Shown in pieces: positions 59,604 through 61,950 of a stretch of DNA of 64,000 nt. Origin of the DNA: an uncultured Flavobacteriaceae bacterium (GTDB taxonomy: Bacteria; Bacteroidota; Bacteroidia; Flavobacteriales; Flavobacteriaceae). Every line of letters starts with the position of its first letter. The stretch's first letter is position 1. A program made the position numbers and the translations under genes. The stretch covers positions 248,001-312,000 of the forward strand of contig CANMFQ010000003.1 in assembly GCA_947497145.1 (NCBI GenBank), given 5' to 3'. The notes beneath the pieces were generated by a model. It searched no databases. It worked only from the letters and a program-made list of their open reading frames with translations, and was not told the origin of the DNA.

Positions 59604-60101
59604 TGAAAATATATCCCAAAAAACCCTTGCCATAAATCAAAAAAATTGTGAATTTCCCTCACTTTCATCAGAATAACACAAATCATTTCTAATAAACACA
59701 AAATTTAAAAAGCCATTTATACCGCTATCACTTTAAAAACGGAGTTTTCGTTCCTTCTTTTTTCCGTTATCAGTGAAGTCTTAAAAATTTAGTAAATCGA
59801 GAAACTTAAACAGGTATTCTTCAGCTTTCGCAAAACAAACCACACTATACACCCCTTACCGTTTCACATGGATGGTGTATGGTCAAAAACACTCAAGCAG
59901 CATATGTAGCCGTTTCAAAGCGGGCGCCCAGCACCTCTGTAAAAACAATCCCATACCACAAAAAACGCCTTTAAATGCATAATAAAACTTGATTACGGTA
60001 CTAAAAAAATAAAATTAACCCCGCTATCACCATATATTCCCAGCAAATTTGATCTGTTAGGTTTGCAAAGAATAGAAAAGACACTTCTTAAAATTTGCAA
60101 A

Positions 60102-60127
60102 AATTTACTATGCATGCATAGTAAATT
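60102..60127. promoter_or_regulatory. Perfect 26-bp palindrome upstream of etfBA, probable operator
   Basis: Half-site AATTTACTATGCA (60102-60114) followed directly by its exact reverse complement TGCATAGTAAATT (60115-60127). A promoter-like TATCTTAG lies at 60142-60149, so the palindrome covers the -33 region, as for a repressor site. Length and symmetry fit a dimeric TetR- or GntR-type regulator of lipid or electron-transfer genes; the regulator is not encoded here. Confidence 0.65.
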
Positions 60128-60141
60128 AGGAAATTAATATG

Positions 60142-60149
60142 TATCTTAG
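60142..60149 (+). promoter_or_regulatory. Possible -7 promoter element for etfBA
   Basis: TATCTTAG matches TAnnTTTG with one mismatch. It lies 26 bases before the etfB ATG and 14 bases after the palindrome. Confidence 0.4.
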
Positions 60150-60175: not shown

Positions 60176-60916
60176 ATGAAAATATTAGTTTGCATAAGCA
60201 ACGTACCCGACACTACATCGAAAATAAACTTCACCGATGGTGACACCAAGTTTGACACCAATGGGGTTCAATTTGTAATAAACCCAAATGATGAATTTGG
60301 CTTAACCCGCGCAATGTGGTTTAAAGAGAAACAAGGAGCAACTGTACACGTAGCCACCGTTGGCGACGCCACAACAGAACCTACCATACGAAAAGCCCTT
60401 GCAATTGGCGCCGATGAAGCCATTAGAGTTAACGCAACCCCTACAGATGGCTTTTTTGTTGCACAGCAATTGGCTGAAGTGGTTAAAAATGGAAGCTACG
60501 ACCTCGTTATAGCAGGAAGAGAGTCTATCGACTACAATGGCGGCATGGTACCTGGCATTTTAGCAGCATTAGTAGACATGAATTTTGTAAACACCTGCAT
60601 CAATCTTGAGGTTGAAGGCACTACTGCCACTGCTTTACGTGAAATTGATGGCGGTAAAGAAAAAATAACAACAAGTTTACCTCTAATTATTGGTGGACAA
60701 AAAGGACTTGTTGAAGAAAGCGACCTACGAATACCCAATATGAGAGGTATTATGATGGCTCGAAAAAAGACACTCACCGTAGTTGAGCCTACTACCGCCC
60801 CTGCTGCAACACAAGAAGTGAAATTTGAAAAACCCGCAGCAAAAGGCGCCGTAAAACTGGTTGATAATGTAGATGATTTGGTTAATCTACTTCACAACGA
60901 AGCTAAAGTCATCTAA
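60176..60916 (+). CDS. etfB: Electron transfer flavoprotein, beta subunit
   Basis: A 246-residue cytoplasmic subunit that, with EtfA, carries electrons from acyl-CoA and other dehydrogenases. Recognised by the start MKILVCISNVPDTTSKINF, the NPNDEFGLTRAMWFKE segment, AGRESIDYNGGMVPGILAALVDMNFV and the IPNMRGIMMARKK segment used for docking with the partner dehydrogenase. AMP is bound by this subunit in known structures. etfA follows after 65 bases. A 26-bp palindrome lies upstream, so repression is probable. Confidence 0.97.
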   Translation: MKILVCISNVPDTTSKINFTDGDTKFDTNGVQFVINPNDEFGLTRAMWFKEKQGATVHVATVGDATTEPTIRKALAIGADEAIRVNATPTDGFFVAQQLAEVVKNGSYDLVIAGRESIDYNGGMVPGILAALVDMNFVNTCINLEVEGTTATALREIDGGKEKITTSLPLIIGGQKGLVEESDLRIPNMRGIMMARKKTLTVVEPTTAPAATQEVKFEKPAAKGAVKLVDNVDDLVNLLHNEAKVI

Positions 60917-60981: not shown

Positions 60982-61950
60982 ATGTCAATATTAGTATATA
61001 CCGAATCAGAAAACGGAAAATTCAAAAAAAACGCCTTTGAAGTAGCCTCTTACGCCTATGCGGTGGCACAACAACTAGGCACCACAGTAACTGCAATTTC
61101 ATTTAATGCCACTGAAAACGAAAGTTTAGCCAACTACGGTGTTTCAAAAGTATTAAATGTAAACAACGAAAGTTTAACAACATTCAATGCAAAGGCATAC
61201 GCCAACAGCATTTGCCAAGCAGTGGCACAGGAAAATGCTACGGTAGTTATTGTTAGTTCAAGTACCGACACTAAATTTCTTACACCTTTAGTTGCAGGGA
61301 AATTACAAGCTGGTTATGTGCCCAATGTTGTAGCTGAACCCCAAAGCGCAAGTCCTTTTACCGTAAAACGTACTGCCTTTAGTAATAAAGGGTTTGCCAT
61401 AACCCAAATTGATACCGATATTAAAATAGTTGGTGTTTCAAACAATGCCTTTGGTGTGCACGAAAATACCGCTACGGCAACTGTTGAAGATTTCAGTCCC
61501 TCGTTAAGTGATGACGATTTTTCTACAAAATCAGTAGAAATAGATAAGGTTGTTGGCAAAGCAACGATAGCAGATGCCGATATTGTTGTTTCTGGAGGAA
61601 GAGGATTAAAAGGACCAGAAAACTGGGGAATGATTGAAGAATTAGCCGATGTTTTAGGCGCAGCTACAGCCTGTTCTAAACCTGTTTCTGACTTAGGATG
61701 GCGTCCTCACGGGGAACACGTAGGCCAAACAGGTAAACCTGTAGCTAGTAACTTGTATATAGCCATCGGAATTTCGGGAGCTATACAACATTTAGCTGGT
61801 GTAAGTTCTTCAAAGGTAAAAGTGGTCATCAACACCGACCCTGAAGCCCCTTTCTTTAAAGCCGCTGATTACGGAATTGTTGGTGATGCATTTGAAGTTG
61901 TTCCGCAGCTTATTGAAAAATTAAAGAAATTTAAAGCACAAAACGCATAA
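60982..61950 (+). CDS. etfA: Electron transfer flavoprotein, alpha subunit
   Basis: A 322-residue FAD-binding subunit of the electron transfer flavoprotein. N-terminal MSILVYTESENGKFKKNAFE; C-terminal FAD domain with VVSGGRGLKGPENWGMIEELADVLGA, the signature SDLGWRPHGEHVGQTGKPV and the conserved IAIGISGAIQHLAGVSSSKV and INTDPEAPFFKAADYGIVGD. Length is typical. Together with etfB it forms a two-gene operon that ends at a hairpin (61977-62023). Confidence 0.97.
   Translation: MSILVYTESENGKFKKNAFEVASYAYAVAQQLGTTVTAISFNATENESLANYGVSKVLNVNNESLTTFNAKAYANSICQAVAQENATVVIVSSSTDTKFLTPLVAGKLQAGYVPNVVAEPQSASPFTVKRTAFSNKGFAITQIDTDIKIVGVSNNAFGVHENTATATVEDFSPSLSDDDFSTKSVEIDKVVGKATIADADIVVSGGRGLKGPENWGMIEELADVLGAATACSKPVSDLGWRPHGEHVGQTGKPVASNLYIAIGISGAIQHLAGVSSSKVKVVINTDPEAPFFKAADYGIVGDAFEVVPQLIEKLKKFKAQNA

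Follow-up and report, generated by a model that had tools for sequence, protein, structure and literature searches.

Regulators of fatty-acid breakdown in bacteria include those of FadR type, such as the GntR FadR of gamma-proteobacteria and TetR FadR, PsrA and FadP. Marine Bacteroidota consume much organic matter, and no regulator of fatty-acid breakdown is described for them in the literature searched. Another related system is FabT of Streptococcus, Lactococcus and Enterococcus, which, in the accessible parts of the sources, binds DNA better with acyl-ACP (PMC9083066, PMC5487221). The locus described here resembles FabT, as portrayed in those parts, in that a MarR dimer would be paired with palindromic operators at the promoters of fatty-acid genes, including its own; it differs in that FabT controls synthesis genes, whereas the neighbours of marR here are breakdown genes (PMC9083066, PMC5487221). 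We consider it likely that a palindrome upstream of etfBA serves as operator for a MarR-family dimer that regulates its own gene and would control fatty-acid beta-oxidation in the Flavobacteriaceae and in some related Bacteroidia.

The window, by which we mean the whole 64-kb stretch of DNA that was analysed, contains the following features at this locus.

60102..60127, no strand: 26-bp perfect palindrome, predicted MarR operator of etfBA (sequence inspection and genus conservation, 14/14)
60142..60149, + strand: -7-like box TATCTTAG of etfBA, 27 bp after the palindrome centre
60176..60916, + strand: etfB, electron transfer flavoprotein beta subunit (open reading frame; PF01012)
60982..61950, + strand: etfA, electron transfer flavoprotein alpha subunit (open reading frame; PF00766 and PF01012)

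The sequence-only reading had described an exact 26-bp palindrome without a spacer, the symmetry of which stops at both ends. Both points were confirmed: AATTTACTATGCATGCATAGTAAATT lies at 60102-60127, flanked by non-pairing A residues at 60101 and 60128, with 48 bp between its end and the etfB start. No other uninterrupted perfect palindrome in the window has arms of at least 8 bp, and at up to 3 mismatches the sequence matches nowhere else there, 100 shuffles having returned none. Arms of at least 13 bp are expected by chance 0.0023 times per window, and 30 first-order Markov windows gave a longest arm of 11. The etfBA palindrome is real and beyond chance. Between pdhB and etfB, the window has about 440 bp more than most relatives. 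This extra stretch, from 59646 to about 60085, matched nothing in the 13 other genus genomes and nothing in Rfam, which points to a recent change in the region alongside the palindrome and could speak for a chance palindrome, or for an RNA hairpin or terminator. Such an origin is hardly credible. Chance was rejected on the expectation given above, on the empty shuffles and on a reversed control in the genus that returned nothing, and relatives that lack the extra stretch still keep the palindrome. A hairpin or terminator was rejected because the site lies upstream of the -7 box wherever a box can be placed, and so outside that transcript, and because Rfam gave no match to it.

At up to 3 mismatches, the 20-bp core of the palindrome occurs at three places in the 5.1-Mb genome, and the reversed pattern at none. 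These sites precede etfBA, a nitronate-monooxygenase-like (NMO) gene (PF03060, with the FabK model under its cut-off) and a gene for a 149-aa MarR-family protein. The last of them lies 44 bp ahead of marR, on another contig than the window, in which the sequence-only reading had noted no candidate regulator. Downstream of marR, in the same orientation, come genes for an 801-aa 3-hydroxyacyl-CoA dehydrogenase/enoyl-CoA hydratase, for a thiolase and for an acyl-CoA dehydrogenase. The marR and NMO sites both read TTATTATGCATGCATAATAA, and their symmetric changes relative to the etf site keep the palindrome. A relaxed pattern matched 13 genome places; the nine with 2 mismatches were discounted as near background (4 in the reversed control), and the place with 1 mismatch, at C17:83368 ahead of a TonB receptor and a GDSL lipoprotein gene, is judging by sequence a probable further site.

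The regulator had been suggested to be of TetR or GntR type. This proposition has to be abandoned, as the regulator gene encodes a MarR-family protein (PF01047, 44.3 bits with the cut-off at 24.6), for which Pfam at E ≤0.001 returns MarR, MarR_2, HTH_27 and Staph_reg_Sar_Rot and no TetR or GntR domain. The monomer model has a confident MarR fold (mean pLDDT 90.3), the closest PDB matches of which are MepR, MexR, MarR and SlyA, with DNA-bound MepR, SlyA and MarR among them; the protein scores below the cut-off of every NCBIfam equivalog. By sequence, the best PDB matches include the thiol-sensing MarR proteins AbfR, SarZ and OhrR. A regulator of this type was rejected, since the protein of the window organism has no cysteine among its 149 residues, the reactive one included, and thiol sensing is thus impossible for it. 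The entry 6jbx ('fatty acid biosynthesis transcriptional regulator'), which we take to be FabT, is a weak PDB match, at 36.4 bits versus 59.9 for the best.

Across the genus, the site is present at up to 2 mismatches in 14/14 genomes, with 55 sites in total and 2-8 per genome, and the reversed control gave 0. The regulatory site anticipated by the sequence-only reading held up here: it is kept upstream of etfB in these close relatives (14/14), and all 55 sites precede genes rather than falling at random positions. By homology, 15 of them lie ahead of etfB (two in G009), 13 ahead of marR and 13 ahead of the NMO-like gene, the latter two each in 13/14 genomes; the genome without a marR site is 57% complete (G002) and that without an NMO site 85% complete (G003). 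The remaining 14, which were assigned by the beginning of the reading frame that follows, precede KAS III-like (5), GDSL lipoprotein (4), FadH/old-yellow-enzyme-like (2) and TonB receptor (3) genes, and Pfam, run on 2, 1, 2 and 2 of them in that order, agreed. The distance from site centre to gene start is 59-63 bp for etfB (one at 155), 43-45 bp for marR and 15-33 bp for NMO, the last being measured to the longest frame; the start of that frame is close to the -7 box, and the true NMO start is therefore probably a later ATG. The etfB promoters of G008 (L050) and G009 (L053) are identical in the stretch compared, and the second etfB site of G009 (L055) is different; a contig from one of these draft genomes may have ended up in the other. 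Control of the divergent pdhB gene was also considered and rejected: its spacing from the site varies (94-108 bp in 13 relatives' loci, 252 bp in L027 and 549 bp in the window organism), so that the link to pdhB is not kept.

Beyond the genus, the site at up to 1 mismatch was found in 152/199 family genomes (control 0/199), and a MarR homologue (E 1e-10 or better) in 189/199. The site is present in 151 of the 189 genomes with MarR versus 1 of the 10 without (Fisher 1e-5, shared ancestry uncorrected), and a FadB homologue is still found in 6 of these 10. The single exception, G150, carries sites, MarR and FadB both not being found in its genome, which is perhaps an assembly gap. In the order, 49/246 genomes have the site, with no control hit among the matches listed. 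In the phylum sample, MarR (E 1e-12 or better) occurs in 46/247 genomes and the site in 19/247, all within the 46 (19/46 versus 0/201 without MarR; Fisher 3.6e-16, shared ancestry uncorrected), and the reversed control in 1/247. No site at up to 1 mismatch was found in 38/189 family and 27/46 phylum-sample genomes with MarR, some of which carry more diverged sites.

The question of whether one regulator gene always carries the site was addressed at the level of loci, in family, named and phylum sets that overlap in part. The gene is marR: in the best 30 family loci the site lies 42-49 bp ahead of it in 30/30, with 0-2 mismatches, the next box being TAnnTTTG in 29 and TATCTTAG in one. In the best 80 named loci listed (Maribacter, Zobellia, Arenibacter, Cellulophaga, Robiginitalea and others), it lies 33-50 bp ahead of marR in 80/80, with 0 (57), 1 (11) or 2 (12) mismatches. 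A palindrome in its own promoter, which is a trait of the MarR family, is therefore found in all of these loci. TATGC..GCATA is invariant in the 80, so symmetric covariation is limited to pairs 10, 12 and 13, as the core hardly varies. Among 23 phylum-search loci (L164-L186), TATGCNNGCATA is present in 23/23, the site deviating from the full pattern at 0-5 positions and lying 30-46 bp ahead of marR, in one case 133 bp. Among 19 distant loci (L190-L208, 36-51% identity), it stands upstream in 12 and in a more diverged form in three, and four (L201, L202, L203 and L205) have no site ahead of marR; FadB and thiolase homologues adjoin marR in 16/19. Three of the distant loci, from another family (L196, L198 and L200), show two palindromes ahead of marR exactly 83 bp apart, about 8 helix turns; these pairs perhaps serve looping or two promoters.

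On this sequence evidence, the operator, its conservation, its targets and its co-occurrence with the regulator gene are established, and we infer that this MarR protein binds the operator. It is improbable that the sites bind another regulator which also controls marR, with the MarR protein binding elsewhere. MarR binding is a prediction, and at L203 and L205 (genomes G531 and G632) marR has no adjoining site, with sites present elsewhere in the genome, which would fit such a regulator; against it, the sites of the phylum sample are confined to genomes with this MarR gene (19/19), and MarR genes usually bear their own operator, according to the accessible part of PMC5487221.

The promoter architecture bears on the direction of control. 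The -7 consensus is TAnnTTTG, its T being counted as -12 in the available part of PMC6847099, and TATCTTAG of etfBA is one base off this consensus. With TATCTTAG counted from -12, the palindrome extends from about -52 to about -27, so that the '-33' label given to it by the sequence-only reading was about right; at marR, the operator spans about -43 to -16. In the genus, TAnnTTTG follows the centre by 17-18 bp in 13/13 marR promoters, and a -7-like box follows it by 22-25 bp in 12/13 NMO promoters and by 27 bp in 9/15 etfB promoters, the other six having a more degenerate box that was seen by eye at a similar position. The best 80 named marR promoters have TAnnTTTG 17 (68) or 18 (12) bp after the centre. 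The centre-to--7 spacing thus forms three classes (17-18, 22-25 and 27), which lie on different helix faces and would suit a steric block better than contact activation. The position of the operator, the autoregulated first gene and these three spacings would fit repression. As regards the earlier proposal, a dimeric regulator site tied to acyl-CoA metabolism is supported, and the repressor role attached to it is putative, being read from position.

The same MarR protein and sites could also operate the other way, with the dimer as a ligand-bound activator that aids RNA polymerase at promoters without a -33 element. This is unlikely in our view. No -33 TTG was found 17-23 bp from the -7 box in 80/80 of the best named marR promoters or in the scorable genus promoters (14 etf, 13 NMO and 13 marR), and some MarR proteins do activate, according to the accessible part of PMC5487221. 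The missing -33 TTG was nevertheless set aside as a sign of activation because it says little: the element is weak in Flavobacterium johnsoniae promoters overall, as far as the available part of PMC6847099 goes, and in the window background such a TTG accompanies just 9/108 TAnnTTTG strings. Moreover, the operator centres lie at three differing distances from the -7 box, and the majority of characterised MarR proteins are repressors, in the same accessible part of PMC5487221.

Beyond etf and fad, the targets are, judging by the genes next to the sites, largely lipid genes. One site per genome was classified, which makes the sample a biased one: 30 family loci comprised 13 MarR (one with KAS III), 12 EtfB and 5 other; 27 order loci 12 MarR, 6 EtfB, 1 FadH-like, 1 NMO and 7 other; and 5 phylum loci 1 MarR, 1 thiolase and 3 other. 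Among the 'other' loci, Pfam recognised thioesterases (L089, L098), a short-chain dehydrogenase (L153), an NMO (L099), an acyl-CoA dehydrogenase (L327), a 4Fe-4S protein (L326) and an esterase (L140); L141-L144 begin like L140, the one of these five on which Pfam was run, and L157 resembles NMO at its start, whereas no assignment was obtained for L090, L093 and L325. G150 has a 2-mismatch site ahead of a gene for a PETase-like secreted hydrolase (L240), and a beta-ketoacyl-ACP synthase III gene (L238) follows another of its sites; L239 of this genome gave no assignment either. The prediction would tie several poorly assigned genes to lipid use, namely the NMO-like flavoenzyme, the divergent KAS III and the GDSL lipoprotein with its TonB receptor.

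We propose the following mechanism. The marR gene heads the run marR - 3-hydroxyacyl-CoA dehydrogenase/enoyl-CoA hydratase - thiolase - acyl-CoA dehydrogenase, with its own operator in front. Without substrate, the dimer would occupy the palindrome, covering the upstream portion of each promoter and blocking RNA polymerase. When lipids are available, acyl-CoA (or fatty acid) would be formed, bind the dimer and release it, and the beta-oxidation operon would be switched on together with the electron-transfer flavoprotein that accepts its electrons. The releasing ligand is probably an acyl-CoA, as guessed from the targets and by analogy with FadR-type regulators and FabT. More tentatively, it can be hypothesised that one MarR protein acts as a lineage-wide switch for the route that leads from environmental lipid to acetyl-CoA in the Flavobacteriaceae and neighbouring Bacteroidia. 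Such a switch would cover secreted esterases, among them the PETase-like hydrolase of one genome, together with GDSL lipoproteins and their TonB-dependent receptors, beta-oxidation and the electron carrier ETF, with the core TATGC-NN-GCATA kept since the common ancestor and acyl-CoA as the direct signal.

No description of the motif or of the regulon was found in the literature, subscription journals lying mostly outside the scope of the search, and the sole match to TATGCATGCATA, in the part of the source available, was an unrelated nematode genome-editing paper. The prediction specifies a gene, the exact operator sequence and the expected targets, which are testable in culturable Maribacter, Zobellia or Cellulophaga. 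As predicted from genome comparison, regulator and operator form a pair that is new but belongs to a familiar kind, with a predicted regulon. The neighbourhood of fab genes that is a trait of FabT is replaced here by beta-oxidation neighbours, a FadB homologue adjoining marR in 80/80 of the best named loci. The likeness to FadR-type regulators, as these are generally understood, lies in a single regulator that would serve beta-oxidation and etf genes at scattered places, with a presumed response to acyl-CoA; the difference is that FadR-type regulators belong to other protein families, this MarR protein having no TetR or GntR domain. The lineage-wide switch, if true, would be the Bacteroidota counterpart of FadR.
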